64,000 nucleotides of DNA from a virus. The stretch covers positions 46,026 to 110,025 of the IMG/VR virus record IMGVR_UViG_3300032249_000861. One strand, given 5' to 3'. The notes under the pieces were generated by a model that did not search any database, was not told the DNA's origin, and saw nothing but the letters and a program-made list of their open reading frames with translations. How positions within the stretch are numbered: the first letter of the stretch is position 1; every line of letters starts with the position of its first letter. Made by a program: the position numbers and the translations under genes. This document shows, in pieces, positions 1-55,949 of this stretch.

Positions 1-300
1 GGTTTTGGAGCAAAAGGAGCTACTGTACTTCCCAAGCCAAGAGATTTTGAAGTTCCTCAAGGTTTTGATATAACTCAACAGGGTTCTGATAGAAGACAAG
101 TACTAATTCCCAGCCAAGGTAGTACAGCATTTGTTGCAGATAAAACAGAAGACCAGACAGCAAAATATAGACAAGCTGGATATGATGTTAAGAACATAGA
201 ACGAACCGGTGGTATTAGTGGCACAATGGTTAGAGATTTAATTATAGCTGGAGATATGGCTAAACTTCAATCAGTATTGTCTCCTGGCGTATATGATCTT
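1..300 (+). other. C-terminal part of a nucleotidylyltransferase-like domain inside the giant protein
   Basis: The segment reads as the end of a cytidylyltransferase/NMN-adenylyltransferase-like fold: a conserved ISGTMVRDL motif (about bases 214-240) followed by a short helix and an LSPGVYDLV-like end. This matches the usual ISGT-x-[VI]-R signature and its following helices. The HIGH-type nucleotide-binding motif would lie upstream of the window, so catalytic competence cannot be judged here. Confidence 0.5.
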
Positions 301-3300
301 GTCTCGAATAACATAGGAAGAATACAAAATAGAGCTAGTGTTTTACCATCTCTTATAGAACAAGCTCAAAAAGAAGCACAAGCTGAAATGGGTCAGGTGG
401 ATCAACAGATAGAAGCTCTTGGAATCAAGAGAATAGATTCTAAAAAGTTGGAGAGTGACCCAGAATATGCAGCTAAAGTAGAAGTTCTTAAAGAGTTAAG
501 AGCTAAAAAACAAAAGATCAAATCAGCTGCGGGATTCACCCCATATAAATTATTAGATGCTTTAGCCGAAAAAGATCCGCAAAATTATGCATTGGACTTC
601 TCCACATCATCTAACCTGGGTAATGTTCCAGACATGAGGGTCATGGGACAAAACTCACAAGCTTCAATACCAGCTGGTAGAGTTGCTCAATTAGCTCAAG
701 AAAAAAATAAAAGTATTCAAGACGTTATACTAGAACAGCTAGGCGGATTGGGTGGTCCTGCTGGAGTTAAAAAAATACTTGGCATAGGTAGTGGAGATAG
801 AACATTAAGCTCATTATTACAAGCAGGAAATATTAAGGGAGGTAAAGGTCTAGACGAAGCAGCAGACTATGTTAACAGAGCTTTAGCCGCTAGGGGTATA
901 AGAGATGCTGCAGAAGCCAAAAGATTAGAGGAGTATCAAGCTAAGGCTCTTCATTTTGGTATTGCTGGTTTATTGCCAATGGATTACTCAAAAGAATTCG
1001 AATGGGATATTGGCGGTACCGATGTTTACGCTACTGCCAGAGGTTTTGGTAGTACGTATTTGGAAGAAGCAAAACAAATGCAGAAGGAGTCATCAGAACT
1101 AGCTCAAAGATTTGCAGAAAATGTGCAAAATAAAAATATCTTTGGTGGTGGTGAAAAATTGGCTTTTGATTTTGACAAAACATTAGTTGAGGATGCAGAT
1201 ATTCTTGATGCTAAGGGCAAGCCAGATATTGCAAAATATTCAAATAGAGAGGCTGTACAAGAAGCTCTCAAAAGTGCAAGACCAACCAGACTAGCAACTA
1301 AATTAAAATCACTCATAGAGCAAGATCCCCCATTTATTAAGAAAACCAGAATACTAACAGCTAGGCCACAAAGCACAGCAGACCTTCTTGCACAATCATT
1401 ACAAAGCTTTGGTCTTCCCTATGCCGAAACAGATATTACTGGAGTTAGTGGTGGCGTTAGTAGCAATATTCCTGCATTAAAAGCTGCTAATTTACAGAAA
1501 GAAGAGAAACTTATTGATGATAGTTTAGATAATATTATGGCTGTTCGTAAAGCTGGTAAAAAAGGATTTCAATATACTGAACCCAAATCCACAACATCAG
1601 AACTAGACGAAAAAATGGGTCAGGGTAATATCGAGGGTGCTATAATAGAAAAAGCTTTGGCTGTTTTGGGTGCTCCAGTAAGGCCGGATGCTAAACAAAA
1701 TAGAGCCATAGACTATCCAGACGGTTTAGGTAGTGCATCTCAATTCTTTCCTGGTATTGATCCTGGTATTCCAACAGAAGTTAAAAGAACAATTGACGGT
1801 AGTAGTTTAGAGAAAGTTAGAGAAGAGATTGGAAGATACATAACAGGAGGAGCCCAAGCTGTTAAATTAGCTAGAGGTGGAGCCGTTCAAAGCTTTATGG
1901 CCGGTGGAGCAGCAACCAAAACCAGAAAAACAAAAGAGCCTTTCGGAACTGGTGAAACAGAATTTCCAACAAGAATATCAAAAAAATATGCCGAAGAACA
2001 AAAAACTGCTGATGAATTTGCTAAATCTAAATTAGCATGGGATAAGTATCCTAAAGACGAAAGAATAATGGTTGACGATACAAAAGTGCAAGAAGCTTAT
2101 CAGCAACCATTCGATAGAGAAAGATTTGCTTCATCATTCAAAGAAAAAATTAGTCGCGACTCACTATTCCAAAGAATGTCAGATTTTGCTAAGTTTGTAG
2201 GACTTCCAGAAGAAGACCTATCAGTAGCATTACCCCTACAATTAGATTTCGGCGCTAGCAAAAGAGGCGGTGGTCTAGGCATGTTCGCTGCTGCTCAATT
2301 TGAAAAAGGAGCAACCGGAATTAGGCCATATGAAGGCTATGATTTATCTAAATTTGGATATGGAGAAAAACAAAAACAAGAAGCTTATGGATTAGAGAAG
2401 CTTATAACAGCAAAAGAAAAAGAAATAGCAAAGATTAGAAAAACACCAACTGAAACTTATGATGATGGTAGTTTCTCTTTTGATAGTGAAGCATTCCAGA
2501 AAACCAGTATTGAGTTAGATAGCCTTAAAAATAGATTATTTAAACTAAAAGATTTAAAACGTGACGCAGAAAAAGCGGCACTGTCTGAGCAAAATACTAC
2601 TTCATCAGCTGCCGGTCGAGGAACTATCAGCTTTGCTTCTTCTATGGGTTACTCTAGCGATACCAAGAACAGCACCCTATACCACGAAATGACTCATCAG
2701 CTATTTCAAGGACTAAGAACAAAATCAGCAGGGAGTTTTGATAAATATCGAGATAGAGTATCGTCATTATTTTCTGGAGATAATGATGATTTAGCAGACG
2801 CTTTTGACTCCTTAACGGCTGGGGGCGGATATTCTAGTGCTGATGTTGTATATGGTAGAAGCTATAAGTCAAATAACTTAAGTCAAATACTTTCGAGCTA
2901 TTATCGTCAGAATCTTGATTTTTCTAGAAGTGCTGCTACTATTCCCCAAGATACGACAAAAAATCTTGCTAGTTTAAGTACCCAAAGCACAGCCGCCAAA
3001 AGAGCCAGAGAGTATAGACCAATAAATCCTAGAGTTAACGAAGCTTTACTTCAAGCTGGCGATAAGTTTGGAATGACTCAAGAGAAGATTGATAGAATGG
3101 AAGATAATGGTAAAGAAGAGTTCTTAACAACCTTAATGGAAAAAGCCCCTCAGCTTGATCAAAATTTACAAGGAATTTTAGACTCTACTTTAACAGAACT
3201 ATTGAGTGGAGCTGGAATTCAGAGACAAAAATATGCAGCAGGAAGAAAAGTAGATTACGAATCTGGTGTTGGAGTATCACCATTCGGAGGTTCGATATCA

Positions 3301-6300
3301 AAAAGATTAAGCGAGTCAGTTTATAATCTGCAAAAGGGTACCGGACTAAGTGATCCAGAATTCAATGAGATCAAAAAGACAGCAGATACATACGGATATA
3401 ATGAAGAAGAATTTAAAGAATATTTAGCAAAAAGAATACAAGAGAAAAAGAATAAACAGGGACTAAGAGCCAGTCCATCAGCCTTGGCACAGCAGTTGAT
3501 GCAACAAAAAACAGTATCAACACCCAAACAGCTAGCATTAGCAGAAACACTAAAGGGTGAGCCAGATGCTGGTTATAGACCCATACCAACAGCAGCCGAA
3601 AGAATAGCTTCAGATCGAATGGCTGTTCAGAATGCCACAAGAAGATTTGCTAGTGGAGGCACTGTCTCGGCTTTAGTTAGTAACGGCGAAGCTTATGTTC
3701 CGCCAAAAATAGCCAAGAGAATTGGTTATGGTAATCTTAATCGTATGAATCAAGCTGATCGTAACGGGATGAGCAAGTTCTCTAGCGGTGGTATTAGTGT
3801 GTTTAAAGGTCCTGGGACTGGCACTAGTGACAGTATTCCTGCTAATTTACCAGTTGGTAGTTTTATTATTAGAGAAAAGGCTACGAAGGCTTTAGGTCTT
3901 AATAAGGGAGGTGCTGTACCAGCACAAAGATTTGCTACTGGGGGTAGCGTAACAAGCATGATTATGGAATGGTTGTCATCAGACATGACTGCTGGGACTA
4001 AGCCTAAAATGCCTCAAAGACCTGATATTGTTAGTAGGGCTACTGTTACAGCTTCTTCTGATACAACAAAAGAGTTGGATAATCTAGTTAAATCTCTTAA
4101 TGCTGTCGGGTTTAGTGCAAAAGAATCTGCAGACATATTGAATAGGGGCGGGCAGGTTAGTTATAAAACTATAGAAAAAGCTTTGGTTAAAGATATTGAG
4201 AGATTAAAAAAATCTACAGCAGGTATAGATCAAATTACTCAAGCAGAAACAACTTTAGCAAGAATTCGTAATCAGACAAAAAAAGATGTTGGTAGTAAAC
4301 AAAAAATGGAGGAAGCTTTCAGAGGATCAGGAAGATCATCCGGCTCTGTGCAGCAAGAAATTTATTCTACAGCCATGTCTATGGGCGAACAGAATATAGA
4401 AGCAAAAGAAGCTGCGAGAAGAAAGAAAATACCACAAATAGAAAAAAGAGAAAGAAAAAAGCTTATAGAAAGTAAGCGAGAAGATTTTATTGAGAAAGAA
4501 TATAAAAATCAAGTAGCTAAAGAACAAAAAACTAAAGGTAGAAAATTAACAAGTACAGAAAAAGATAAAGTTAGATCTGATGCAGAGCTTAAGGGAAATA
4601 CAAAAACTTTTAAATTAACTACAGAAGAAAAAACCAATGTTAAAGCAACAGCACAAGCCAAAACCACATTATCTGCTGAAGAAAGAACAAAAGAATACAA
4701 TAAAGCAGCGTTAAGGGCGACAACCTCGGTTACAGGAGCAAGTAAATCAGAATTAGCAGCTAAAAACGTTAAAGGTTCTGATATCTTAAGATATGCTCAA
4801 GAGAGTATGAGAGATCGTAAAACCCTAGCCGAAATGGATAAACAGTTTGTGGCTATGGCAATGGATGAGTATAAAAATCGTGGCACTGTAAATGGTATAG
4901 TTGTTAAGAGTGCGGCTGAAGCTAAAAAAGCTGCTGAAGAGGAGATCTCAAAGAGAAGAGAAGCTATTAATGCGAGAGCTTCACAGAATGGAGAAAAAGG
5001 AGTCGGTGCTGCTGGGTTGAGAGACTATAGAAATAGTCCCATACTTAATCAGATAAAGGGATTTATAAAATCTCCTGGAAGAGTAATGGGTGGAGTGTCT
5101 GTTGCTGCTGGGCTAGCTGCTGGCTCTTCCGATATGATTGCTAAAAATATGTATGATATGAGTACAACAGAGGGCCAAGGGAAAGCTGCTAAAACTTCTG
5201 CAGCTATTCAGTCTTCTGGTACTATTCTTAGTACTGGATTAGCAGCAGCATCACAGATGGCAACCATACCAGTTATTGGTCCTTATGTTGCTGCTCTTAC
5301 TGCTGTGGGAACAGCTGCTGCAGCTGCTGCTGATTATTTTTATGATTTTACAGGAGCTCAAAAGGCTGCTACTGTAGAATTCGAAAGATCAGTAAGGGCC
5401 AAAGAAATTGGAATTGCTATGGATGGTTTAGATAGAGCATTCCAAAATTTTGAAAAAGACATGGGTAATATTGATTTACAAAACGCTTTAGAAAAATCCC
5501 TCGGCGGCGCATCCTCTTTGCAAATTAAAGATAATATGGCAGAAAGAGACAATGCTAAAGCAGAGTTCTCTTTAAAGAATAGAAGTTGGTCGGATATTTT
5601 TAGTGGAAACTTCAAAGGTTCCGCCAAGATGGACGCTCTTCAGCAAGGTGCTATGGATAGTGAAATGTCTCAAAAGATAACACCAATAGCAGATAAGGCT
5701 ATGTCGTTATATGAGAAACAAATTAGTAGCGGTAAGAGTATACAAGATATTGTTAATAATGTTCGTACAGGAAATAAAGAGGCTGGAGCTGCTGGTTTTG
5801 CTGTTGCTGCAAGTGTAAATCCCAAGTTGTGGTCAGAGTTAGAAGCCAAGATAGCAAAATCAGGAGATACTTCAGAGCAGAATAGAGAAAAAATTCAAAA
5901 AGAAATAGCTGCTAGAGAATTACTGACCAATGTTCAATTACAGTCAATTGAAAGAATGGCTAAACTAAATAAAGAGATGGATGCTGCTGATAGAGCTGGT
6001 CGCAGATTGGCTGAAACTTTTGAACACATAGGTGAAACTATTGATCAGTCAATTCAGAGAATGCAAAGAGAGTCGCAAATTCGTCAAGCTCAAGCTAACG
6101 ACAGAGTAGAAGCTAGAAGAGGAAATGCTGGTTTTGATGAGAGGGCTGTTAATAACAGAAATGTTGGAGTACTAACCAGTCCAAAAGCATATCAAAATGA
6201 TCCTGGGCGCATAGAAGAAGCTATCAGAGCAGGAACTACCGGCATGTCCCCGGAACTTGCTCAAAAAATGGCTGGTGGAGCTAGATTAGAAGCTACTTTA

Positions 6301-9300
6301 CCTAATGTGATGAGAAATGCAGTATCTTCAGAGCTTAAAACAAATGCCAATTTAGATCTTGCTGAAGCAGCAGATGCCGCCAGGAAAAAAGGAACAGAAG
6401 CTATTCAAAGGTCTGGATTATCAGAAGCTGACCAAAAAGTTGCTATAGATAAATTAAACACAAAATTAAATAGTGAACAAGAAAAAGCACAAAAAGAAGG
6501 AGGAGATAGTCCAAGACAGAAAGTTGACTTTTTTATTGATTCTGTTAGTGAGCTTGGTCCAGAAATAGCTAATATATTTGGTAATGCTGGTAAGAGACTA
6601 GATGATATTATTCAAGCCAGACAAGGAATCTATGATACTTTTGCAAAGAATCTTCAAGCCGCCTCAGAAGCTGCTAAAAAAGCACGAGAATTTTTCAGTA
6701 AAGCAAGAGACATAAGATATAATGCTGGAATGGATTTGAGAGAAGCTCAAACGGGCGTAGGAGAAAGTTATGCTGAAGCAAAAGCTAAATCTGATAGTAG
6801 TATTGCACGATTAACTGGCGGGGTTACCGATCCTCAAGCTATTGGTAGAAATATTGATGCTTTAACGGCTCGTCGTGATCAGCAAATGAAAGCTAGAGAT
6901 GCCGCAGCATCTGATCCAAATCTAACTCCAAAACAACAAGAAGATGCGGCCATAAAATTTGCTAAAGATATTCAAGCTACTAATAATGCTTTAAACGATA
7001 ATAGAGAAGCACTAGATAAGCTAGCTAATAGTGCTGAAGTAGCACAAAAAGCTTTAGACGAAGTTAAGAACATTAGAGGACTACAACAAGATAGAGAGAA
7101 CTTTGTTAATCAATTACTAACAAATACTCCAGCAGAAGCAGACAAACTTAATCAATCATTTATTAGACTTCAGCGTAACTTGTCTGGTGGGTTAAATAAT
7201 GCTTCTAATCAAAGAGATGCCCGAAATGCTTTTAATGATACGTTACGTCGTACAGGTAATCTAAGAGAAGCTACTCGCGCTGGAAATACTGTATTAGCAG
7301 ATCAAAGAAAACAAACCCTACAGCTGATGCAAGATCCTGGATTTAGGGGTATGATGACCCTTAATATGAAAAATCAGGGAATGAATGATCAACAGATAGA
7401 TAAGAAATTCAGAGATCAAGAGAGTATGCTGATGCAGCAGATGGCTGTTGAAAGTGGAATGATCAATAATCCAATGGTCAGACAAGCACTAGCCGCAAAA
7501 CAAGATCCTAATGCTGATCCTGCCATGAAACGTGCTGCTGAACAATTTTTACAGTCAACGGGCTTACAGGCAAAAGCTACTGAGGAGCAAGGTCGATTAG
7601 AATTAGCTAATGTGCAAAGCTTATTAATAACATCTACTGATGATTTAAGAACGTCTATAGATGCTTTAACAACAAGTATTAATGCTTCGTTAGGTCCAGA
7701 CGGAGAAAGAGTTCCTGGCGCTGTTGGGCCTATGGTGCCTGTTCCAGCCGGGGCCAGAGGAGCAGGTCCTATTGGACGTCCTATTAGACGAGCTACTGGT
7801 GGTAAAGTCAATACTCAATATGCTAGTACTGGTAAATTAATAGACTTTTCTCCCAAGGGTACCGACACTGTTCCCGCCATGTTAACCCCCGGTGAATTTG
7901 TTGTTAATGCCAAAGCAACGGCAGACAATTACCCACTGCTAAAAGCTATTAATAATGGAACTAATCTAGTTGGTAATACGGCTATGATGAGTAAGGGTGG
8001 AGTTGTTTATTTAGATAATGGCGGATTAATAGATGAGTTTAGAAGAATAGATTCTAATAGTTCCAACTTTTTAGAAGTTGGTGAAATAGATCTTAAAATG
8101 ATGCAATTATTAGATACAGATAAAGATAATAAAGTTTCATTTAGAGAATATTCTGCAAGAGCAAAGAGCGGTGGTAGTGGATCTTCAAGATCTGGTCAAA
8201 GATCACCAGTTAATAGTAGTTTTAAAGCCGACAATCTAAGCTTTAAAGCGTATTCTAATGCTAGAGAAGAAAAATACTCAAAAAGATACGAAGGCACCAG
8301 AGATCGATTCCCTAGAGAAACAGAGAAATTTTCTAGTGGGGGCTTAGTTACTCCATACTATTTACAGGACGGAACAGAAAAACCACTATCTAAAAGACCC
8401 TTTATGGTAAAGATGGAGAAACCAGAAGACCCTCTTGAGGCTGCTGAACGCCGTCGTGCCCGTGCTCTTAAAGCGTCCCATCCAGAGATTACTAGAGTCA
8501 GACAACCATCTTTGGTTCCTGGGGATCCTAGAGCATTAAGACACAAAGAAAGCTTCTATAGACTAGATGTTAATAGTGATGGTGTTCTAGATGCAAAAGA
8601 AGGCAGACCACATCCTGAACTTGATAGAGATTTAGATCGAAGAATAACACTAGAAGAATGGGACGGAATCGATCCTGGTGAATTTGACCCAGATGATTCA
8701 AGCCATGTTCTGCGAGACAGTAAAGGCAATCCTTTAACTCCTGGACTTATGGGAAGCCCATTTGAAAAAAGGCATCGTTCTTTAATGGCTTCTGTTGCTA
8801 TGGATGAAGAAAAACTTGCTAAGGGTGAACCTTTAGTGGACTCTAATGGAAAACCCATAGACTTAGCAAGTAAAAGGAAAGAACTAGCCATATTTAATGC
8901 TCAGTCTGGTCTATATAATACTAGTCAATCACTTATAGCAAGACAAAAAAATATTGACGATAGTCTAACCAAACGATTAACTGGTGGCGGTTCTCTTCGT
9001 AATCCTGATAGTTCTTATGCTGTTACGAGAGAATTTAATAAGATTCGTGATCGGAGATCTGCTTTTGAAGAAGAAAGAAGAGGTCAAAGAGCCAAAGATG
9101 AGAACGCAACAGATGAAGAGATATTTGATCGCACAGTAGAAGCCTATGGGCAGGGAGATTCAGATTATTGGCGTAGTATGGGCGTTACTGAAGCACCAAA
9201 CTCTTATGATGAATCTAATACTCTGAATTTTATTCGCTCAGGTGATCGTCTTGCAAGCAGAGGAGATCCTTATGGAGACAAGGCCAGAGCATATATAGAC

Positions 9301-12300: not shown

Positions 12301-15300
12301 AAACCGATATCAACAGAAGAACAGTCTCCGGTTGGAGAAACCACAATTCCTCAGCCTAATAAAGATGCTGCTGATACCGTAACTGCCGGTACAAAACCAG
12401 TCGATGCTGCAACAGTAGCAGCAAAAAACCAGACAGTAGTCAAGGCAGCAGAACAAGAAAATACATCTTCGCTACAAACATCAGCGATACCGCAGCCCAA
12501 ACCCTATAATCCTACAGATTATCCTATTATGGATAGTATTATGAGAGGAGGAAAGAACGGCCATTATGGTCCGATGGGTACTACTAATATAACAGGTAAA
12601 CAAAATATTCATGGAATAAGCGGATGGAAAACTAGACTCATACCAAAAGACGACGCGTCTGCAGCAAAAATTAAAGAATTTTTAGATACTCATCCAGATA
12701 TAGGGTCATATAAGTTAGCATTAAATGAGGGACCAGTACCAGTATTTAGTGTCTATTTCAAAAAAGGCACCAAAGATGAAGCACTATCTTTTGCACAAGC
12801 TAGTGAAAAAGGACTAAAAGATAGTTTAGATCCTCGTTTATATCAGGGTGCTGATACTCTGCTAGAAGGGACAAATATTTCCGCAAGATTTGATGCTAGA
12901 GATCTAAAGAATAAATCAGCATCATCAATTATAGATAGACAACTAGAGAATTCTCCTTTTAGTAGAGGATTTTTAAAAGCTGAAGAACTGAATCTACAAA
13001 TACTTCCATCAAATACGGCACCTGGGTCAACGGCTAGCAGAGCAATGCCAAACATTACTGCTGGCACCAGAGGAGTACCAGATACCGGGTATGTTGATTG
13101 GTTAAAAACAAAAAAGTTTTTGGCGAAAGATCCTAAAAAGATAGCTAGTCTAGATGCAGAGATACAAAGAGCTACTAACGTAGCAGATGATTGGCTAAAA
13201 GAAAATATGTCCGACATCTACAGCGCATCTGCTGAACGAACAGCTAGAGAATCAACAGGCCCACAACAACAAGCAGTAGTTGAAACAGCAACAAGAGACG
13301 CTACGAGCAGGCCAACCAAATCCGGTTTTGTTCGAGATAAATCATTACCGATAAACGAAGTAGACGATCTAGCTTCTGCCGGATTTGGAGTTATAAGCCC
13401 AGACCAAGAAGTAGAAAGTGTTATAAGGGGTGCAAGAGAAAATTTTCTTGGCTCTTTAACTAAACCAGCAGCATTATTACAGCCAGAAACATACCAAAAA
13501 TATGCAGACCAACTATTAGAACTAGAAAAATCAGGAAAAATAAAAATAACCAAAGGCGCTTCATTTGGTACTAGTGGCCAACCAAGTATATTTGTAGGAA
13601 AACCAGAAAATGTAGATATTCTTGCAAAAGCTTTTGAATCTGAAACAGCAAGGACACGAGAAACGAGAGGTTCAACATCAAATGAATTTAAAGAAACGGT
13701 AGGAAAAGCATTAGGATATAGTAAAGATAGTATAGCCCTACATATATTAGAAAAAGATTGGGATAAAGCAGGATTAGATATAGACACTATTCAAGATAGA
13801 TTACAAGTTAGTCGTGGTGCTGCTGCTCGGTATATGGTATCAGAAATTAATAAAGCTAAAGAACAAGCATCAGTTGAGCAAGGAGTAAAAGAATCAATAA
13901 ACCCGCCCATCAAAGATCCTATTACTGGAGATGAATTTGAATTAGGACCTGGAGATGATTTTCAATTAGGAGGTCTTGGAGAAGATCCGTTGGCACCGGC
14001 TCCTATAATAAAACCAGAAAATGTATTACCTGAAGCAAGAGCAGAATCAGAAGCTCGTAGAGCCGAAACAGCAACCTCACGAACTAAATCTAGTATTGTT
14101 GATGAAGATGAGTTTGTTTTAGGAGACATGGAAGATGATAGTACTGTCGTAGCTGTTGAGCCTGACGATGGTTCGAACTTTTTTGGAGAAGCATTCGCTG
14201 CCGCCGCACAAGAAGCCAGAGCCATAGAAGCAACAAGGGCTCAGATTGAAACCAACGATAAGTTTGTTGTTGACCAGCCTGATATGATGACAGCTTCAGA
14301 GCTTGACCCAATAACAAGAGCTTCTAGTAGGAGGGTTTGGGGATCTGATAAGGCTTTTGAAAATATGCCCAAACCCAAAATTTCTAGAGAAAAAGTCAAA
14401 GCACTAGACACTGGCGAGCCTGACGAGATGACAGCTTCAGAGCTTACTCCTCTACAGAGGGCCGTTATTAATAAGTCATTCGGACTTGATTCTGATAAAG
14501 GTTTCGAATTGCGAGAACAACTTATAGCTCAAAAAAGAGAAGCAGATATACTTCCAGAAGACTTTTTTCCAAACGGTTCATCAAGAACAGAAACTCCATT
14601 ATCTTCAGCTAGAACAGAAGCAGAAGCTAAGAATCCTGGTACCGTATTTGAAGGACAGTTAGAAGCAGCATTAACCGATGCTTCTTCTCCAGAAGCTTTA
14701 AAAGCTTCTGCAGAAGCTCAACAAAGATTAGCAGCACAAAAATTAGCAGCAAAATCTCCAGAACAAATATCTGTAGAAAAAACATATGGTCCTTTATATA
14801 GAGAAGCTAAAAAAGCTAATGATACAGCGGAGATGGCCAGAATACGATTAGAAGCTAATGCAGAATTTAAGAAACGCTCTCAAGAAGCTTCTACAAGATC
14901 TGAAGATAAAAAGAACAATTTCCTTCCTGTTATGGGTAGGGTCTTAAAGATAGCCGCCCCAATCGGATCAGCTATTGGTTATGGACTAGGATCGTTATTA
15001 AGTGGTTCTATGGGCAGAAAAAAAGAAGAACCTCAAGATTTAGCTTCTAGGTTAGAAAATGCTTCTGATCTACAAGAAGTTTTTGATCTTTTAAAACTAG
15101 CAGAAAAAGACAAGATAGGAAACCCGACTAATCCTTTAAGAGAAATAGGCGGATCATCCCCACTTATTGCTAAATTACAAAAACTAGCTCCAGAAATATA
15201 TGGTAAAAAAGGTAGTGACTATTTTAGCTCTCAAGACTTAGCAGCTATGCCGGAAGACGCATATAATGAGAATTTTCTAGAAAGATTAAAAGATAATGCA

Positions 15301-18300
15301 ACATTCGAGAAGATGAAAAGAGAACAAAAGGTAGCTGAACCTGCTCGCTTAAAGAGTGATGAGGCTGCACGGGCTACAACAAGAGATCTTATAACGCAAT
15401 GGTCTCAAGACTTTGCTATGGCGGGTAATGATGTCCGAACTCCTCCAGGTTCTGATCCTAAAAAAGCTAGAAATCCGTTAAAAGCCATGTCACGAGAAAT
15501 GGCAGAAAGAGCACAAGAAAGAAGAAGTGGATTCCCCACAGACGATCAAGGAAACGATCTACAGATAGGCACTATGATTCCCGCCCCGATATCGGTTTTA
15601 GATCGTACAAAAAATGATGCTGCAGCGATGAGAGAAATTGACGAAAAAGATAATAATGCTGCTCCGATGCTGGAAGTTAAGAAACCAGTAAAGAAATCTC
15701 TTGGGGGTTTAATTTATGCGTCGAAAGGAACCTTAGTAAACTACCAACCTCGTGGAACTGACACAGTACCAGCAATGTTAACTCCGGGCGAGTTTGTTGT
15801 TAATGCCAGAGCAACAGCAGATAACTACCCATTACTAAAAGCTATTAATAGCGGAACTAACGTTGATACTACTGCTAATATGAGTAAGGGCGGTGTGGTT
15901 TATGCTCAAGAAGGAGCATTAGTACCTAGCTTCGGAATGCATATTCCATCTTTAGATCCAGACAAAAATACTAAATTAACCCTATTACCAGAAAGCTCTT
16001 TAGATCAAGCAAATACAAAAGAAGCTTTTCGAGAATATGGAAACGCTCGACCTTCCTATCAATCAAGACCACAACTACCAAAGCCAACTGTTCAATCAGG
16101 ATCTTTTAAAGAAGGAGTTCATGATAGAAATTCTGTTATAAAAGATAGTGAATATTCTAGAAGTTTAAAGAGAATGGGTATTCCACACGTATCACAGAGT
16201 GGTGGATCTAAAACCTATTTGGATCAAAATGGCAGAGAAATTTCAGCAAATGAATTTAAACTTTTACCAGAAACGTCTTTTAATCATCCAGAATATGCAG
16301 TCATGCGTAGCAGAGCAGCTTTTGCTGCTGGAGCTGCTAAGTCTGTTGTTCCTCAAATGGGGGCTACGTCTGGGGCTATAGCAGGAGCAGCTGCCGGAGC
16401 CGTATTAGGACCTCCCGGAGTAATTGCCGGAGGCTTGATTGGAGGTTTGACTGGTGGTATAATGGGATCGGCATTACAAGAAACAGCATTAGATATAGCA
16501 AATCCAGAGGCTAACGCTATAGCTAATCAACTAATGGATCAAAATCCCGTATCAGCAATGGCAGGATCAGCAGCAGGAGACATTGCAACAGGAGGATTAC
16601 TATCATTAGCCTTGCCTTCTATACCAACACCAACAAGGGCTGGAGATTCAATGGTTGGTCCCGGAGGACTAACACCAAAACAAATAAAACATGCTGAAAA
16701 AGGATTAAATAGACCCATATCAGAAGCGATTACTCCGTTTACAGGAATGAAAGGATTTGGAGGTCGTTATGTTGACGGTCCAATAAGTGTTGATCAGTTA
16801 GTATATAAATCCAGAGACAACTTGGCTGAGAGTATTCATTACTCTGGGGCAGATCCCAAAACATTTGATTCATTAACAACAAGATTAACAGAACCTGTTC
16901 CTGGAGCTCTTGGTGATTATTACCAGGGACTAAGCAGGATATCTCCTAAAGCTCCTCCAGAACATATTATTGGAACAATAGCTCATGAGGCTGGCCATCA
17001 TTATCAAACAATGAAGGACCCTACTGGAAGATTCGTAAAAACTTGGATGTCAGATAATAGAGATCAAGCAAGTGACTGGATTTTAAAAAGAACATCCTCT
17101 CCTCAATATCTTGAAACTGCAACTCCAAGAAACCAGGTGAATTATGGAGTTAATGATATGCTGAGTGGGGATTTTTATAAACAGAGACAAATGGAACAAT
17201 TAAGAAAAGAGTTTGGAGAGGATGGTTTTAAGACTTTATTAGAAGACTCGTTAGCACATACTCTAGGGGCTGGTAAAAAAGGCATAGCTGGAGATGTAAA
17301 TTCAGCACTAAGATTTGAGTCTCAAAACTATATTCGCGGCAGAACTGGTGGCAGATATGGCGAAGCAGGACTAGCATTTGGAGGCGAAGACCTGTCTCGC
17401 ATAGATCCCGATATAATGGCAAAGGTTGGAGTAAGAGCTCCACAAACCTTAACAGGTCACGACAGAGTTTTAGACGCTATGACAAGATATGGTCAGGATA
17501 AGGGTTTTGCATTTCCTAATTTTGTAGATAATGCAGAAGTGTCTGGTAGACAAGAATTTCTTACGTCTATGTTCCAGGATTTAGGAGGAGCAGATAAAGA
17601 AGCCAGAGGATTATCTCAAGGATTAGTCAAATTTATCGAAACTAAGGGTGGAGAAGGCGTAAAAATGACTCCACCGCCACTTCCTCCATCTCCACCACCA
17701 CTTCCTGTTAATAGATACGCAAATGGCGGAATGGTCAATATGTCTGAAGGTAACAAGATTCCATCCGAAGTATGGGCAATAGGTACAAAATATACAAATG
17801 TTATGTCTCCTGAAGATTTTGAAAAACGCAAAGTCATTAGACCAAAATTATCTGATGATAGTACCTATGATACCCCCAAGGTTTTTAAAGACTATCACGA
17901 AGCACATAAAAAACCTATTAGTATTGATCCAGCATTACTAGATAAACAATCTTCTTTCTCTAAGTATTTACAGTCTGGCGGTCGAAGAATGTCTAATAAT
18001 GTTGAAATTGCACCAAAATTAACCACAGATGAAGTATTACAATATTTTCAAAATATAAAAGCAAAAGAACGTCGTGAAGGTTCTCCTCCTGCTGGTGGTA
18101 GGGTTCAATATGCAACTGGTGGAATAGTTTATGCAAATAATGGTGCCCTCATAGCTGCACAACCAATGGGAACTGATACTGTTCCAGCGATGCTAACTCC
18201 AGGAGAATTTGTTGTCAAAAAAGAACAAGCTCAAAAACACGCTCCAATATTACATGCTATAAATAGTGGAGCTTATAGTAGGGGTGGTATTGTTAATTAT

Positions 18301-18942
18301 TTGGCTAATGGTGGTATTGTTAATCCAAACTATTTATCTTATGGTGGCTATGCCAAAATGGGAGAGCAAGATCGTCGAGATCCATTAAAAGAGATGAGTC
18401 AGAGAGTAGCAGAATATAACGCCGCTGCAGCACCTCAACCAGTACCACTTCCTGCTCCAGCCCCAGTTCAAGTTCCATCTCCAGCACCAGTTGGTGGTGT
18501 ATCTAATAATATTGGTATAGATTTAGCTGGTTTGCAATCAATAGTGGCTAATTTCCAGAAAACGGTCAATGATTTTGGAGCATCGGTGCCTTCGCTTTCA
18601 CAAGTGGCAGAGAGTATGAATACTGGTTTTAGTTCTTTCGTAACAGGAGGATCTCAAATAGGAGAGATGTTAAATAGTGCAACAGCTGGTTTACAACAAG
18701 TTAATCTTCCTGATAGGATTAGACTAGAAGGTTCAGTAAGTAATAATGTAAATATTAACGGTGCTGAAGCAGCCGCTAGGGTTATGGATACTATGGGCGG
18801 TGCTATTCAACAGGGCGCAAATGAACAAATAGGCAGATTCGCCGGAGCTATTAATAGAGGTATTGGTAATTTGGGTGAAGGAGCATTAGGTCCAGATACT
18901 GGTCAAATTATGGGTCAAATAGGTGGTTCAAATTATGCTTAA
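1..18942 (+). CDS. Giant tail tape-measure protein with embedded enzyme-like domains (5' end outside window)
   Basis: The frame is open from base 1 without a stop, so the real start lies upstream; 6313 residues are visible (numbered from base 1). Tape-measure identity rests on four glycine-rich modules, three of them carrying GTDTVPAMLTPGEFVV, on long Ala/Gln/Lys-rich helical stretches and hydrophobic segments (around residues 1755-1780, 3620-3680, 4980-5005, 5435-5500), and on its place just before fibre and baseplate genes. Embedded are the end of a nucleotidylyltransferase-like domain (ISGTMVRDL, about 71-79), a HAD-like domain (DFDKT 390-394, TARP 453-456, DDS 506-508), HEMTH at 895-899, EF-hand loops between 2684 and 2886, and HEAGHH at 5662-5667. 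Family knowledge: tape measures set tail length and often carry peptidase or lytic domains; giant phage polyvalent proteins combine such enzymes. Whether the domains are active, or cleaved off, is inference. It is exceptionally long for a tape measure. Confidence 0.8.
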   Translation, partial: GFGAKGATVLPKPRDFEVPQGFDITQQGSDRRQVLIPSQGSTAFVADKTEDQTAKYRQAGYDVKNIERTGGISGTMVRDLIIAGDMAKLQSVLSPGVYDLVSNNIGRIQNRASVLPSLIEQAQKEAQAEMGQVDQQIEALGIKRIDSKKLESDPEYAAKVEVLKELRAKKQKIKSAAGFTPYKLLDALAEKDPQNYALDFSTSSNLGNVPDMRVMGQNSQASIPAGRVAQLAQEKNKSIQDVILEQLGGLGGPAGVKKILGIGSGDRTLSSLLQAGNIKGGKGLDEAADYVNRALAARGIRDAAEAKRLEEYQAKALHFGIAGLLPMDYSKEFEWDIGGTDVYATARGFGSTYLEEAKQMQKESSELAQRFAENVQNKNIFGGGEKLAFDFDKTLVEDADILDAKGKPDIAKYSNREAVQEALKSARPTRLATKLKSLIEQDPPFIKKTRILTARPQSTADLLAQSLQSFGLPYAETDITGVSGGVSSNIPALKAANLQKEEKLIDDSLDNIMAVRKAGKKGFQYTEPKSTTSELDEKMGQGNIEGAIIEKALAVLGAPVRPDAKQNRAIDYPDGLGSASQFFPGIDPGIPTEVKRTIDGSSLEKVREEIGRYITGGAQAVKLARGGAVQSFMAGGAATKTRKTKEPFGTGETEFPTRISKKYAEEQKTADEFAKSKLAWDKYPKDERIMVDDTKVQEAYQQPFDRERFASSFKEKISRDSLFQRMSDFAKFVGLPEEDLSVALPLQLDFGASKRGGGLGMFAAAQFEKGATGIRPYEGYDLSKFGYGEKQKQEAYGLEKLITAKEKEIAKIRKTPTETYDDGSFSFDSEAFQKTSIELDSLKNRLFKLKDLKRDAEKAALSEQNTTSSAAGRGTISFASSMGYSSDTKNSTLYHEMTHQLFQGLRTKSAGSFDKYRDRVSSLFSGDNDDLADAFDSLTAGGGYSSADVVYGRSYKSNNLSQILSSYYRQNLDFSRSAATIPQDTTKNLASLSTQSTAAKRAREYRPINPRVNEALLQAGDKFGMTQEKIDRMEDNGKEEFLTTLMEKAPQLDQNLQGILDSTLTELLSGAGIQRQKYAAGRKVDYESGVGVSPFGGSISKRLSESVYNLQKGTGLSDPEFNEIKKTADTYGYNEEEFKEYLAKRIQEKKNKQGLRASPSALAQQLMQQKTVSTPKQLALAETLKGEPDAGYRPIPTAAERIASDRMAVQNATRRFASGGTVSALVSNGEAYVPPKIAKRIGYGNLNRMNQADRNGMSKFSSGGISVFKGPGTGTSDSIPANLPVGSFIIREKATKALGLNKGGAVPAQRFATGGSVTSMIMEWLSSDMTAGTKPKMPQRPDIVSRATVTASSDTTKELDNLVKSLNAVGFSAKESADILNRGGQVSYKTIEKALVKDIERLKKSTAGIDQITQAETTLARIRNQTKKDVGSKQKMEEAFRGSGRSSGSVQQEIYSTAMSMGEQNIEAKEAARRKKIPQIEKRERKKLIESKREDFIEKEYKNQVAKEQKTKGRKLTSTEKDKVRSDAELKGNTKTFKLTTEEKTNVKATAQAKTTLSAEERTKEYNKAALRATTSVTGASKSELAAKNVKGSDILRYAQESMRDRKTLAEMDKQFVAMAMDEYKNRGTVNGIVVKSAAEAKKAAEEEISKRREAINARASQNGEKGVGAAGLRDYRNSPILNQIKGFIKSPGRVMGGVSVAAGLAAGSSDMIAKNMYDMSTTEGQGKAAKTSAAIQSSGTILSTGLAAASQMATIPVIGPYVAALTAVGTAAAAAADYFYDFTGAQKAATVEFERSVRAKEIGIAMDGLDRAFQNFEKDMGNIDLQNALEKSLGGASSLQIKDNMAERDNAKAEFSLKNRSWSDIFSGNFKGSAKMDALQQGAMDSEMSQKITPIADKAMSLYEKQISSGKSIQDIVNNVRTGNKEAGAAGFAVAASVNPKLWSELEAKIAKSGDTSEQNREKIQKEIAARELLTNVQLQSIERMAKLNKEMDAADRAGRRLAETFEHIGETIDQSIQRMQRESQIRQAQANDRVEARRGNAGFDERAVNNRNVGVLTSPKAYQNDPGRIEEAIRAGTTGMSPELAQKMAGGARLEATLPNVMRNAVSSELKTNANLDLAEAADAARKKGTEAIQRSGLSEADQKVAIDKLNTKLNSEQEKAQKEGGDSPRQKVDFFIDSVSELGPEIANIFGNAGKRLDDIIQARQGIYDTFAKNLQAASEAAKKAREFFSKARDIRYNAGMDLREAQTGVGESYAEAKAKSDSSIARLTGGVTDPQAIGRNIDALTARRDQQMKARDAAASDPNLTPKQQEDAAIKFAKDIQATNNALNDNREALDKLANSAEVAQKALDEVKNIRGLQQDRENFVNQLLTNTPAEADKLNQSFIRLQRNLSGGLNNASNQRDARNAFNDTLRRTGNLREATRAGNTVLADQRKQTLQLMQDPGFRGMMTLNMKNQGMNDQQIDKKFRDQESMLMQQMAVESGMINNPMVRQALAAKQDPNADPAMKRAAEQFLQSTGLQAKATEEQGRLELANVQSLLITSTDDLRTSIDALTTSINASLGPDGERVPGAVGPMVPVPAGARGAGPIGRPIRRATGGKVNTQYASTGKLIDFSPKGTDTVPAMLTPGEFVVNAKATADNYPLLKAINNGTNLVGNTAMMSKGGVVYLDNGGLIDEFRRIDSNSSNFLEVGEIDLKMMQLLDTDKDNKVSFREYSARAKSGGSGSSRSGQRSPVNSSFKADNLSFKAYSNAREEKYSKRYEGTRDRFPRETEKFSSGGLVTPYYLQDGTEKPLSKRPFMVKMEKPEDPLEAAERRRARALKASHPEITRVRQPSLVPGDPRALRHKESFYRLDVNSDGVLDAKEGRPHPELDRDLDRRITLEEWDGIDPGEFDPDDSSHVLRDSKGNPLTPGLMGSPFEKRHRSLMASVAMDEEKLAKGEPLVDSNGKPIDLASKRKELAIFNAQSGLYNTSQSLIARQKNIDDSLTKRLTGGGSLRNPDSSYAVTREFNKIRDRRSAFEEERRGQRAKDENATDEEIFDRTVEAYGQGDSDYWRSMGVTEAPNSYDESNTLNFIRSGDRLASRGDPYGDKARAYIDGYIASQGARQQQDRVDIGMGRPTISPDKAVVGTQGPVDDLNYLIDRNEVGRAVKYKAEQAKTEEENKQRDDAQVKQAEKQASLEKRDKELGIDTSGINRDIYESGGGFSNQPGSGRKVTVEEQTQRKRERAIADRFSFTDKTGKYSTAGTIDKVDFEKGTVKIAKMDPKTGEPITRTVPVFAGGETEEAIKASGRDPRRFKVGEKEEQVYTTVPLDKLSDKSRDKVRSYGLEKEADKAKTGENFTVGTSFEDYKGKIFRVDEKSEKVIVQKEDGKLVSVPMGIIDPETKNIALDQAKTATTVTDLTQKQMDADIGNIDFTSSLPEPQVPLIEDFTDRANEVRQETMNNAALEQTKMDQLPVMSEPVPTSGTIDPLTGKVVGNNVSMDLNPDGTRTPEQLNILNQQATRDADRRNSNARYEELRARSKAESSYDRSWFGENWPKEWGGVSKPEKRLTRKELEELGAMESERGVPALSRLGANTRVEQTRRNAGLDEAQIESLSQQKTEQFKAELEKKNDAEGGVAVGLAAQRAVVPLLAGATAVAAAPALVPAGVIGAGLTIAGGVGFSLGANKLQDVALEGTDFDKRQKELAEKRPGATAVGSLLPGLLTGNPLTGATTLRQALATRAASGATEAALGAGIRGATSGGDFGTVQDVGMDFISGAILPSPNFGGKGSKNYNIPEGPAKPKTEAVALKELAKTVKAEQRAITEENVLDGAEILATKRKQEEVRRAAQEKQRVRDEAEAVKESGREKAVFDVFTIGGRLSDDNIASALKSAKEKTVTGTKLLTGKVTGKPRGDLIEQNPTLASRLGVSTPGLDAVKNGQNITAKDLVAKLKDEGFSEEYAKKVSRERTLKMVSDLATERSKRKDESIQQVASEYKDAVTGVEDPNKRAKIKAKFQTRLQKELSSIVSDTNDRAEAFDSGMTVQELKKQRAAEAQAKDKAESDKLIQEFDSTLGSSKPITIDNPPIGEPLDLGVDPLAPITSARDNAATTAASTKPISTEEQSPVGETTIPQPNKDAADTVTAGTKPVDAATVAAKNQTVVKAAEQENTSSLQTSAIPQPKPYNPTDYPIMDSIMRGGKNGHYGPMGTTNITGKQNIHGISGWKTRLIPKDDASAAKIKEFLDTHPDIGSYKLALNEGPVPVFSVYFKKGTKDEALSFAQASEKGLKDSLDPRLYQGADTLLEGTNISARFDARDLKNKSASSIIDRQLENSPFSRGFLKAEELNLQILPSNTAPGSTASRAMPNITAGTRGVPDTGYVDWLKTKKFLAKDPKKIASLDAEIQRATNVADDWLKENMSDIYSASAERTARESTGPQQQAVVETATRDATSRPTKSGFVRDKSLPINEVDDLASAGFGVISPDQEVESVIRGARENFLGSLTKPAALLQPETYQKYADQLLELEKSGKIKITKGASFGTSGQPSIFVGKPENVDILAKAFESETARTRETRGSTSNEFKETVGKALGYSKDSIALHILEKDWDKAGLDIDTIQDRLQVSRGAAARYMVSEINKAKEQASVEQGVKESINPPIKDPITGDEFELGPGDDFQLGGLGEDPLAPAPIIKPENVLPEARAESEARRAETATSRTKSSIVDEDEFVLGDMEDDSTVVAVEPDDGSNFFGEAFAAAAQEARAIEATRAQIETNDKFVVDQPDMMTASELDPITRASSRRVWGSDKAFENMPKPKISREKVKALDTGEPDEMTASELTPLQRAVINKSFGLDSDKGFELREQLIAQKREADILPEDFFPNGSSRTETPLSSARTEAEAKNPGTVFEGQLEAALTDASSPEALKASAEAQQRLAAQKLAAKSPEQISVEKTYGPLYREAKKANDTAEMARIRLEANAEFKKRSQEASTRSEDKKNNFLPVMGRVLKIAAPIGSAIGYGLGSLLSGSMGRKKEEPQDLASRLENASDLQEVFDLLKLAEKDKIGNPTNPLREIGGSSPLIAKLQKLAPEIYGKKGSDYFSSQDLAAMPEDAYNENFLERLKDNATFEKMKREQKVAEPARLKSDEAARATTRDLITQWSQDFAMAGNDVRTPPGSDPKKARNPLKAMSREMAERAQERRSGFPTDDQGNDLQIGTMIPAPISVLDRTKNDAAAMREIDEKDNNAAPMLEVKKPVKKSLGGLIYASKGTLVNYQPRGTDTVPAMLTPGEFVVNARATADNYPLLKAINSGTNVDTTANMSKGGVVYAQEGALVPSFGMHIPSLDPDKNTKLTLLPESSLDQANTKEAFREYGNARPSYQSRPQLPKPTVQSGSFKEGVHDRNSVIKDSEYSRSLKRMGIPHVSQSGGSKTYLDQNGREISANEFKLLPETSFNHPEYAVMRSRAAFAAGAAKSVVPQMGATSGAIAGAAAGAVLGPPGVIAGGLIGGLTGGIMGSALQETALDIANPEANAIANQLMDQNPVSAMAGSAAGDIATGGLLSLALPSIPTPTRAGDSMVGPGGLTPKQIKHAEKGLNRPISEAITPFTGMKGFGGRYVDGPISVDQLVYKSRDNLAESIHYSGADPKTFDSLTTRLTEPVPGALGDYYQGLSRISPKAPPEHIIGTIAHEAGHHYQTMKDPTGRFVKTWMSDNRDQASDWILKRTSSPQYLETATPRNQVNYGVNDMLSGDFYKQRQMEQLRKEFGEDGFKTLLEDSLAHTLGAGKKGIAGDVNSALRFESQNYIRGRTGGRYGEAGLAFGGEDLSRIDPDIMAKVGVRAPQTLTGHDRVLDAMTRYGQDKGFAFPNFVDNAEVSGRQEFLTSMFQDLGGADKEARGLSQGLVKFIETKGGEGVKMTPPPLPPSPPPLPVNRYANGGMVNMSEGNKIPSEVWAIGTKYTNVMSPEDFEKRKVIRPKLSDDSTYDTPKVFKDYHEAHKKPISIDPALLDKQSSFSKYLQSGGRRMSNNVEIAPKLTTDEVLQYFQNIKAKERREGSPPAGGRVQYATGGIVYANNGALIAAQPMGTDTVPAMLTPGEFVVKKEQAQKHAPILHAINSGAYSRGGIVNYLANGGIVNPNYLSYGGYAKMGEQDRRDPLKEMSQRVAEYNAAAAPQPVPLPAPAPVQVPSPAPVGGVSNNIGIDLAGLQSIVANFQKTVNDFGASVPSLSQVAESMNTGFSSFVTGGSQIGEMLNSATAGLQQVNLPDRIRLEGSVSNNVNINGAEAAARVMDTMGGAIQQGANEQIGRFAGAINRGIGNLGEGALGPDTGQIMGQIGGSNYA
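1141..1600 (+). other. HAD-phosphatase-like domain inside the giant protein
   Basis: HAD superfamily signatures occur in the right order. The DxDxT nucleophile loop (AFDFDKTLV) is at bases 1162-1188. A motif-II-like threonine lies in ILTARP (1351-1368). An acidic motif IV-like IDDSLDN is at 1513-1533, with a Lys-rich stretch before it. The first aspartates (DFD) are intact, so phosphohydrolase activity is plausible. It follows the nucleotidylyltransferase-like end, an order that resembles fused nucleotide or RNA-processing enzymes. The substrate is unknown. Confidence 0.6.
2600..2800 (+). other. First zincin-like HExxH site in the giant protein
   Basis: LYHEMTHQLF at bases 2677-2706 has the HExxH zinc-binding and catalytic motif with hydrophobic flanks, in a region rich in Ser/Gly and followed by helical sequence. 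This is the usual look of zincin metallopeptidase domains found in large phage structural proteins. The third zinc ligand was not identified. It may process the virion or clear host barriers; this is inferred. Confidence 0.45.
3640..3965 (+). repeat. Tape-measure glycine module 1 (divergent copy)
   Basis: A divergent member of the module family: FASGGTV, then a basic stretch, FSSGGISVFKGPGTGTSDSIP, a NLPVGSFIIREKA segment and a closing GGAV/TGGSV pair. It keeps the order GG-[IVT], GTxxSIP, PxGxFIIRxxA seen in the later copies but shares few exact residues with them. Such modules are a recurrent hallmark of tail tape-measure proteins. Confidence 0.6.
7789..8035 (+). repeat. Tape-measure glycine module 2
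   Basis: The module runs ATGGKV, YASTGKLIDF, KGTDTVPAMLTPGEFVVNAKAT, NYPLLKAINNGTN and closes with SKGGVVYLDNGG. It is nearly identical in protein to module 3 about 7.9 kb downstream, while many third codon positions differ. This indicates an old duplication held under protein-level selection. EF-hand loops follow it directly. Confidence 0.75.
8050..8658 (+). other. EF-hand-like calcium-binding loops in the giant protein
   Basis: Three 12-residue loops fit the canonical D-x-[DN]-x-D-x-x-x-[STD]-x-x-E pattern: DTDKDNKVSFRE (8113-8148), DVNSDGVLDAKE (8566-8601) and DRDLDRRITLEE (8623-8658). A fourth, degenerate loop starts at 8050 and pairs with the first. The two pairs are separated by a Ser/Arg-rich linker. 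Calcium binding is expected by family rule; its role in a tail protein (folding or host-contact sensing) is inference. Confidence 0.65.
15697..15935 (+). repeat. Tape-measure glycine module 3
   Basis: The module runs SLGGLIYASKGTLV, RGTDTVPAMLTPGEFVVNARAT, NYPLLKAINSGTN and MSKGGVVYAQEGA. It is the closest relative of module 2, with the same residue spacing and mostly synonymous base differences between the two. It sits between a long acidic and Ala-rich region and the second glycine-zipper and zincin-like region. Confidence 0.75.
16310..16510 (+). other. Glycine-zipper hydrophobic segment in the giant protein
   Basis: About 60 residues made almost only of Gly, Ala, Val, Ile and Pro (AGAAAGAVLGPPGVIAGG and similar), followed by an ETALDIANP-like boundary. 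A related segment lies at about 10861-11040. Segments of this kind can span or perturb membranes, and they are known from tape measures and polyvalent phage proteins delivered into the cell. Membrane insertion during DNA injection is inference. Confidence 0.5.
16970..17060 (+). other. Second zincin-like HExxH site in the giant protein
   Basis: TIAHEAGHHYQTMKD at bases 16975-17019 contains a clean HEAGHH, the commonest form of the zincin motif, preceded by a hydrophobic helix (HIIGTIA). A long helical region with further acidic and His residues follows (for example LLEDSLAHTLG near 17245), which could supply the third ligand. It is a second candidate metallopeptidase, about 14 kb of coding sequence away from the first. 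Confidence 0.55.
18106..18360 (+). repeat. Tape-measure glycine module 4
   Basis: The module runs ATGGIVYANNGALI, MGTDTVPAMLTPGEFVVKKEQA and ILHAINSGAYSRGGIVNYL, then two more GG-[IV] steps. It lies about 200 residues from the C-terminus of the giant protein and is followed by a Pro/Val/Ala-rich linker and a final helical domain. It keeps the GTDTVPAMLTPGEFVV core but differs after it from modules 2 and 3. Confidence 0.75.
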
Positions 18943-21900: not shown

Positions 21901-22493
21901 ATTATACTCTAGATATTGGTGCTTATACAATTATACCCATTGGTACAGATTCTTATAATGTTGTCCAGTCTTCTTATAGAAAATATTGGCTACCCAACCT
22001 TAATGAGTGGCATAAGGCAGCTTATTTTGAACCAGTAGATGTTAATGCTTATGCTGGTACGTCAACAGTTATGGTTAAGAGAGATGATCCTTATCTTGTT
22101 GGTTCTGGTGTTGATACAGATACCAAAAAATTTAAGGAGCTATTTGCTAATCTAAGCATTAGTGGATGGTTGTATGTTGACCATTTAATAGTTGGAGATG
22201 GAACAATACGGTCATCTAAAAAATTTACCGGCTTAGTCCCTCCGACTGGTAATCCTGCTACTACCCAAGGCGAAGACACGACAACACAGTCTACTGGTGG
22301 TATCAGGTTGCCACCTACCTCATTAGATGATATTATTAATAAAGACAATAATGCTGCAGAATCAACATCTGCAACAACATCTGTTGGAACAAGTATACCT
22401 GGCATTCCGTTAAGAAGAGTTCAAGATACTGATTGTGCTGAAAATCCACCTTGGTTCTGTAATCCTAACAATACTGGTCCAAGCTTATTTTAG
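18963..22493 (+). CDS. Tail-fibre-like virion protein with a permuted FGE-sulfatase/C-type-lectin-like domain
   Basis: 1176 aa, starting 20 bases after the tape measure with a weak GAG ribosome site. Residues 1-200 form a beta-rich N-terminal part ending in a VTLPEISQAENLVLEF-type motif common in fibre and decoration proteins. Residues 350-560 are Ser/Thr/Asn-rich fibre-like sequence. Residues about 560-735 share a module with the next gene. Residues about 737-1026 are FGE-sulfatase-like, but the halves are swapped: GTYDQNGNASEW (about 764), GGSYS and GFRVAS come before GKYEVTNKQYCQFLN (about 892), INWLHNGA and YWLPNLNEWHKAAY (about 1008). The C-half carries no cysteine, so it lacks the FGE catalytic pair and is probably a ligand-binding lectin-like fold. 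Probable receptor-binding fibre or baseplate protein. Confidence 0.65.
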   Translation: MANKLVKVFDNIGFNFQIINGKISPIKTLVGFNGLNQKHVGYYIPYICRNKKLNLLEIGIGDVQNDDSGNVIINKHKIVVSSNNNNAVNFENDSNNEFFVFANQNIFNSSISNVVVIDSNTFIDNVSAIYLADCSNQSVSVTLPEISQAENLVLEFKNISPNHDLIIRDSKGGSVTILDGQKSYSKLVTTNDQWISLDNNNSTEYLNTQSSEPILSAQSSPVGDDFSLQYKQGSNFADSNMYWDSVNNDLLLGADNSTDAYSVIPTSGNRPLYINQKKLNSDLVVYGSGNRNLFFSYDGRLGLNIPSGSRPSTIFHIVNTVCQEGFRLENRNACHPADITLFHKPNSAIVNGSIISQINLAGKNTSGNKTDYGSIEALAINTTANLEEGGLQFKIAAASTGVKVFDSNYSATTVGYSGNSLTINRTGSTVLQNNNTSVTLSSSSVNISGSAVTLNTSNLVLGGAGSSVSVPGAIAAGPISATSLQSNTIIAPNIGSGSFITTNGDNRLVGSTTMSVNSLGTLNLPITPNKLLQTTTNGAITGIYSTDDYFRTDGDIVWNKYTQRLASACLKQITFVNPVSVDEYSVGDQLAIVSSSSTFYRRIADVYVENNAITGLLVDQDVSPTDIDGITVYSVTKGGYLDIQVSTEEGVISDSTKNVISARPGTSTLFNTLQKDIDFSVYGIDSTPALKIKANSGKISIISGMYRAFSPKHELPAFPIVVTTGGVGISNLYSSANFNYSNTQNLFSGIVSDVGSNGLPSHYGTYDQNGNASEWIEKPGMLESRDKEEFVAGGSYSTSNAIEGKVLKHVETLIRATGYSYVGFRVASLYNTTDPTNISAPDKLSMSFVGVVDPQNTEDVSTTYIRSTTGGIEQFNSIVINNLGVVDSMYRIGKYEVTNKQYCQFLNVVAKNNDRRLYDSKMGSDAVGGIDRIFDAEYIYIVKPNMDNKPAVFVSYLSAIRFINWLHNGAATSIIESNIDYTLDIGAYTIIPIGTDSYNVVQSSYRKYWLPNLNEWHKAAYFEPVDVNAYAGTSTVMVKRDDPYLVGSGVDTDTKKFKELFANLSISGWLYVDHLIVGDGTIRSSKKFTGLVPPTGNPATTQGEDTTTQSTGGIRLPPTSLDDIINKDNNAAESTSATTSVGTSIPGIPLRRVQDTDCAENPPWFCNPNNTGPSLF

Positions 22494-22512
22494 AAAGCAT
22501 TAAGGAATAATT

Positions 22513-25562: not shown

Positions 25563-25572
25563 GACAACCTTT

Positions 25573-27719: not shown

Positions 27720-27722
27720 ACC

Positions 27723-55196: not shown

Positions 55197-55198
55197 AA

Positions 55199-55945: not shown

Positions 55946-55949
55946 ATAA

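Follow-up and report, generated by a model that had tools for sequence, protein, structure and literature searches.

A 7,574-residue tape measure protein with length-conserved parts and exchangeable enzyme-like cassettes in an IMG/VR virus record

With regard to its size, the protein encoded at the left end of the DNA studied here raises the question of what a phage gains from a tape measure protein (TMP) of several thousand residues that also carries enzyme-like domains: does all of it set the length of an extraordinarily long tail, or is much of it cargo that does not serve as a ruler? The stretch analyzed, in the following termed the window, comprises 64,000 nucleotides corresponding to bases 46026-110025 of a 110,025-base IMG/VR virus record (IMGVR_UViG_3300032249_000861).

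Extent and identity of the gene

Within the window, positions 1-18942 are open from the first base and end with a stop codon. Once upstream sequence was included, the gene proved to be complete, reaching from base 42243 to base 64967 of the record. It begins 3,783 bases ahead of the first window base and encodes 7,574 amino acids from an ATG codon without any internal stop. The window contains the 3' five-sixths of the gene (residues 1262-7574, plus strand) as an intact frame, and residue n of the TMP corresponds to window base 1+3(n-1262). A previous sequence-only reading had described one very long frame with a lower bound of 6,313 residues; both statements were correct, and the whole protein is 20% longer now that the true start has been found. 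Given the base composition of the gene, an open frame this long would arise at random with a probability of about 1e-247. In addition, the giant frame is not an assembly accident, because relatives contain intact frames of up to 6,561 residues and a 7,737-codon frame (7,515 residues from the first ATG) is common to two further records, G060 and G061.

The N-terminal domain (residues 1-590, plus strand, outside the window) is that of a genuine tape measure protein. It matches PF10145 with 79.5 bits (cut-off 33.2) and the PHROG family of TMPs, phrog_28, with 92 bits, which bears out the identity originally proposed. Residues 241-451 are a distant sequence match to SPbeta YomI. Genes for TerL and portal are located upstream of the TMP gene, and the two genes directly downstream (window 18963-24996, plus strand; 1176 and 827 residues), the second of which combines an fn3 domain with weak matches to minor tail proteins, appear consistent with a tail module. 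A tail tube or chaperone gene adjoining the TMP gene was not recognized. The contractile sheath family PF04984 was found in none of nine records of the lineage, some of which are possibly fragments, and the control genomes were matched; this fits a siphovirus, without proving it. Three hydrophobic, transmembrane-like segments begin at residues 3017, 4893 and 6719 of the TMP, and the one in the central part recurs in most of the relatives checked. No peptidoglycan hydrolase family was detected in the giant TMP by Pfam, a DFDGD-like RNA polymerase signature is absent from it, and phmmer returned no match for residues 1-2500 in the PDB.

Fixed parts, variable zones and their cassettes

A first scan yielded 21 related loci, and a profile built from the first 590 residues identified 141 related stretches in IMG/VR, 80 of which were kept. 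If one frameshift and the frames evidently truncated at contig ends are disregarded, the family frames comprise about 2,600 to 7,737 codons, and the 7,574-residue protein is one of the two longest members, the other being the frame from G060/G061. Three contigs of metagenome-assembled genomes (MAGs) carry the TMP N-domain and stem from three different phyla; therefore, no host is assigned. One SAR202 MAG (locus L112; G056) contains two diverged TMPs of the family, 2,540 and 2,179 codons long, on two contigs (C9:36294 and C7:119441), for which a prophage, a co-binned phage and contamination are the candidate sources. A further pair, G047 and G048 (L093 and L094, ~18,700), with frames of 4,293 vs. 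2,932 residues, was considered as a natural length experiment and rejected, since the DNA is 99.99% identical and one or two small gaps split a single TMP frame; a sequencing or assembly frameshift is the best reading, and the case calls for caution in automatic surveys of TMP length.

Proteins of the family contain two to nine copies of the TPGEFV module, the consensus of which is near GG-V-x-GG...GTDTVPAMLTPGEFVIN, and the positions of these modules divide the TMP into an N-terminal part, variable zone 1, a central part, variable zone 2 and a C-terminal part. The lengths of these sections were compared for up to 36 related TMPs of 2,958-7,574 residues. The N-terminal (median 527 residues, CV 0.10), central (median 1,262 residues, CV 0.10) and C-terminal parts (median 221 residues, CV 0.12) hold their length, whereas zone 1 ranges from 327 to 2,309 residues (CV 0.40) and zone 2 from 1,023 to 3,440 residues (CV 0.36), i.e., 3-7-fold between relatives. 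Total TMP length correlates with the lengths of the two zones (rho 0.74 and 0.73, respectively) and not significantly with those of the N-terminal, central or C-terminal parts in this sample. In a separate relative of 7,515 residues, the central part measures 1,260 residues. The zones also differ from the Pro-poor N-terminal and central parts in proline content (4.5-5.0% vs. 1.5-2.3%).

In the window, where all features described lie on the plus strand, the central segment is opened by tandem GG-hinge/TPGEFV-type modules at positions 3649-3951 (residues 2478-2578), extends over positions 3952-7791 (residues 2579-3858) as a length-conserved stretch, predicted to be all-helical, with a hydrophobic part at residues 3017-3035, and is closed by another TPGEFV module at positions 7792-8007 (residues 3859-3930). 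An extra module is located within zone 2 (15700-15900; residues 6495-6561), and the last one (18112-18294; residues 7299-7359) precedes the C-terminal region, which is length-conserved in the family (18295-18939; residues 7360-7574). AlphaFold2 predicts residues 2650-3845 as nearly all helix (mean pLDDT 68.5, with values of at least 70 in 645 of 1196 residues), so that the helical regions on which the original proposal of a tape measure had been made to depend are indeed predicted. A Foldseek search with the helical central model gave no significant match; its weak matches include several TMPs.

Zone 1 of the 7,574-residue TMP contains, in this order, a nuclease-like motif region, a P-loop domain, a nucleotidylyltransferase (NTase), a HAD and a zincin-like cassette. 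The first of these (residues 600-790, plus strand, outside the window) features E..D..ExK at residues ~690-740, a possible nuclease-like motif recognized at motif level and without a profile match. The P-loop domain (residues 983-1169, plus strand, outside the window) has a motif that is invariant across relatives, and its model, which is of low confidence, shows a weak Foldseek match to zeta toxin. The HIGH-type NTase cassette spans residues 1181-1467, its 3' part occupying window positions 1-618. PF16581 was detected in 11 of 11 and PF01467 in six of 11 members of this cassette, with the 7,574-residue TMP itself staying below the curated cut-offs, and the TxGH and ISxTxVR motifs are invariant across relatives. 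AlphaFold2 confidence for the P-loop/NTase region is low (pLDDT 62); with the low-confidence NTase model, Foldseek found cytidyltransferase-like viral proteins (prob 1.00, E 6e-4 to 9e-4) and NMN adenylyltransferase (NMNAT, prob 0.97). Motifs, family matches and predicted fold support membership in the HIGH nucleotidylyltransferase superfamily, while the NMNAT-like fold of the model suggests, as a lead only, a connection with nucleotide or NAD metabolism. The HAD phosphatase-like cassette (window 1042-1842; residues 1609-1875) exhibits an invariant DFDxT and a conserved DD; a HAD profile search gave no match, and the PHROG search gave a weak match to a 5'-3' deoxyribonucleotidase (E 0.009). 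The first zincin-like cassette (window 1927-3252; residues 1904-2345) includes HEMTH at positions 2683-2697, a motif found as HE[ML]TH in eight of eight sequences, and neither a profile nor a PDB match was obtained for it.

Zone 2 contains two EF-hand-like loops at positions 8086-8157 (residues 3957-3980) and 8551-8601 (residues 4112-4128), both with sub-threshold Pfam scores. They are followed by a cassette common to relatives G001 and G003 only (10015-11337; residues 4600-5040), which contains a hydrophobic segment at residues 4893-4911. Another cassette, without assigned function, is shared with G003 (12385-14097; residues 5390-5960); here, identity is 90%, dS is 0.13 and dN/dS is 0.5, the latter above that of the enzyme-like cassettes, values that could stem either from an exchange of very recent date or from selection that is relaxed or diversifying. 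Further downstream, a glycine-zipper stretch (residues ~6715-6750) and then a second HExxH domain (residues 6690-7160), with HEAGH at positions 16984-16998, are encoded at 16285-17697. A type VI secretion effector needs glycine zippers for its translocation, and such zippers are also present in TMP C-termini (PMC10240207), and on account of this role the zone 2 zipper may aid membrane passage.

Taken together, motifs combined with weak profile and fold matches support, at strengths that differ between domains, the presence of several enzyme-like domains in one polypeptide. The nucleotidylyltransferase-, HAD-, zincin- and EF-hand-like parts listed in the sequence-only reading were all recovered, the zincin at motif level and the EF-hands at low strength; the P-loop, the second HExxH domain and the possible nuclease motif had been overlooked.

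The enzyme-like cassettes in the two zones are either present or absent, and their order differs between relatives. In G009, G010 and G016 the zincin cassette lies ahead of P-loop/NTase, whereas in the 7,574-residue TMP, G001, G003 and G005 it comes after it; in G035, the HAD cassette precedes P-loop/NTase. Compared with G001, the backbone of the 7,574-residue TMP yields dS values of 1.25 (N-terminal) and 1.24 (central), as opposed to 0.24 for NTase, 0.36 for HAD and 0.56 for both P-loop and zincin, and the bootstrap intervals of the cassettes do not overlap with those of the backbone. Relative to G002, the central part is 42% and the cassette at residues 600-790 is 97% identical, and relative to G003 the N-terminus is 88% and the NTase 34% identical. 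As the parts of the gene disagree in synonymous divergence, we conclude that cassettes have been exchanged between backbones. In close relatives, dN/dS of the enzyme-like cassettes amounts to 0.10-0.22, like that of the backbone, and by this measure they are under purifying selection. NTase occurs in 17 and zincin in 12 of 37 records, in single copy and always inside the TMP frame; the 26 zincin loci inspected from a broader scan are all part of long open frames, and standalone cassette copies sought in the same records were not found. No near DNA match exists among 50,697 isolated phage records, where protein matches are confined to the TMP core and the TPGEFV module in searches that did not take residues 2501-5000 as a block, and the P-loop/NTase and zincin cassettes had no match. 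A report of cassette shuffling in TMPs was not found in the literature searched, the coverage of which was incomplete. In terms of size, cassette number and exchange rate, the giant TMP is unusual among enzyme-fused TMPs.

A proposed ruler and its cargo

We consider it probable that this TMP, putatively of the siphovirus type, is a modular chassis combining a fixed ruler with swappable enzyme-like cargo that is probably ejected into the host together with the DNA. The three fixed parts, i.e., the N-terminal TMP domain, the helical center of ~1.3 thousand residues and the C-terminal tip region, would do the work of ruler and ejection, whereas recombination at the GG-hinge/TPGEFV modules would insert, remove and reorder cassettes in the two zones, the cargo set consisting of putative P-loop, nucleotidylyltransferase, HAD, zincin and EF-hand domains and of domains without assigned function. 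Either the entire chain or pieces cleaved from it would exit the tail together with the DNA. In the periplasm or cytoplasm, a destination that we infer because TMPs leave the tail ahead of the DNA and reach the inner membrane, the cassettes would then act right at the onset of infection. The TMP of lambda arrives at the inner-membrane complex ManYZ during injection and is labeled by an inner-membrane partner (PMC13190303). The chain may be cut by one zincin or by both, which would free the other domains. The tail lumen is ~4 nm wide, and folded cassettes, possibly in several copies, must therefore fit into it or be unfolded. That a large phage lineage has turned its TMP into a programmable delivery vehicle, with a ruler of fixed length, payloads swapped by recombination between standard docking modules, several different enzymes per chain delivered as the DNA enters, and release by built-in proteases, is a serious though tentative proposal. 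If it is true, a phage tail protein would act as an evolvable injector of several enzymes and would be the tail-ruler-based counterpart of polyvalent proteins, and phages would obtain pre-made enzymes ahead of any phage gene expression.

The closest precedent for a giant enzyme-carrying TMP is gp96 of Thermus phage P23-45, a TMP of 5,002 residues fused to a virion RNA polymerase in a phage with a tail of >800 nm (PMC10770324). Both proteins are giant TMPs fused to an enzyme meant for genome entry (predicted in our case), have transmembrane segments (transmembrane-like in our case) and contain a metallopeptidase domain, a putative one in our case, elsewhere in the chain. On the other hand, gp96 possesses one N-terminal polymerase that has been shown to be active, whereas the protein studied here is ~50% longer, carries several predicted cassettes in two internal zones, lacks DFDGD and exhibits strong shuffling between relatives. 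A resemblance to polyvalent proteins had been suggested as well, i.e., to proteins of phages and conjugative elements for which entry into the host along with DNA and processing by zincins have been proposed (Iyer et al., 2017; PMC5512222). This likeness holds for the very long multidomain chain and may extend to the zincin, which is typical of polyvalent proteins and assigned by motif in the present case, but not to the remaining cassettes: the chassis is a TMP, a HIGH-type nucleotidylyltransferase and HAD occur instead, and the ART and SWI2/SNF2 domains typical of polyvalent proteins were not found by Pfam in the giant TMP. TMPs with peptidoglycan hydrolase domains, e.g., those of mycobacteriophage TM4 and SPbeta (YomI), also harbor an enzyme domain that acts during infection (in our case, an enzyme-like one that would do so); theirs is a hydrolase, whereas the enzyme types predicted here suggest intracellular substrates. 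The TMP of Nodularia phage vB_NpeS-2AV2 (3,404 residues) has two TPGEFV modules that match the family profile, but the models for the central part, P-loop, NTase, HAD and zincin find nothing in it.

An ordinary ruler in an extraordinary tail, with all 7,574 residues counting and with a ruler that includes the enzyme-like domains, packed into the lumen, appears unlikely. The predicted tail measures ~1.1 micrometer for the whole chain, vs. ~0.3 micrometer for the fixed parts alone (~527+1337+275 residues at 0.15 nm each), and to our knowledge a tail of ~1.1 micrometer would exceed any known. P23-45 speaks for such a ruler, as 5,002 residues go with >800 nm although part of that TMP is an RNA polymerase, and so does lambda, the TMP length of which sets tail length (Katsura and Hendrix, as cited in another paper). 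Tails within one family would, however, have to span ~0.44-1.1 micrometers as dictated by cassette swaps, while three parts of the protein hold their length and the Pro-rich zones do not resemble helical rulers. Of the two options that the sequence-only reading had left standing, enzymatic cargo is favored over a very long tail because the fixed parts keep their length and the enzyme-bearing zones vary, swap order and recombine independently; its corollary that cargo adds nothing to the ruler is insecure, because P23-45 seems to need nearly the whole chain to span its tail. The constant segment length could instead mirror folding constraints rather than use as a ruler. With a modular chassis, it would become testable whether each residue of a TMP contributes to tail length, and docking modules together with natural cassette swaps would provide a natural experiment on protein delivery by phage tails.

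Alternatively, the cassettes could act before or during tail assembly, in proteolytic maturation or in a chaperone-like manner, and then be cut off, so that nothing enzymatic would enter the host. The zincin cassettes could serve maturation, and lambda gpH, which is cleaved during assembly, offers a parallel; we nevertheless regard this as very improbable, as no assembly role is obvious for the nucleotidylyltransferase, HAD or P-loop domains and as cassettes that come and go freely on the same backbone better suit accessory, host-directed functions. That the cassettes are functionless recombination hitchhikers or degenerate remnants, tolerated by an insertion-accepting TMP, would agree with their high mobility and weak similarity to characterized enzymes, but is largely refuted by the low dN/dS, the invariance of catalytic motifs in the P-loop, NTase, HAD and zincin cassettes and dozens of frames without internal stops.

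Other genes of the record

Two giant proteins of 2,137 and 2,667 residues are encoded after the tail genes (window 40044-46457 and 46461-54464), neither with a Pfam match. Proteins with FGE-sulfatase (C-type-lectin-like) and Mtd_N domains are encoded at window 36508-38010 and at bases 24714-27215, 21579-23750 and 27341-29443 of the record. As these are the kinds of proteins that diversity-generating retroelements target, such an element was considered and rejected, no reverse transcriptase being found in the TMP record or in six related records. A 1,263-residue protein (window 32269-36060) matches phrog_17273 (168 bits), a family of unassigned function, and, like several other tail-region proteins, the 'kinase' family phrog_18508. 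The tail module is followed by a block of reverse-strand genes (window 54849-63920, minus strand), within which a glycosyltransferase of 564 residues is encoded at 60885-62579 and G+C drops to 0.29 near window 58-60 kb.
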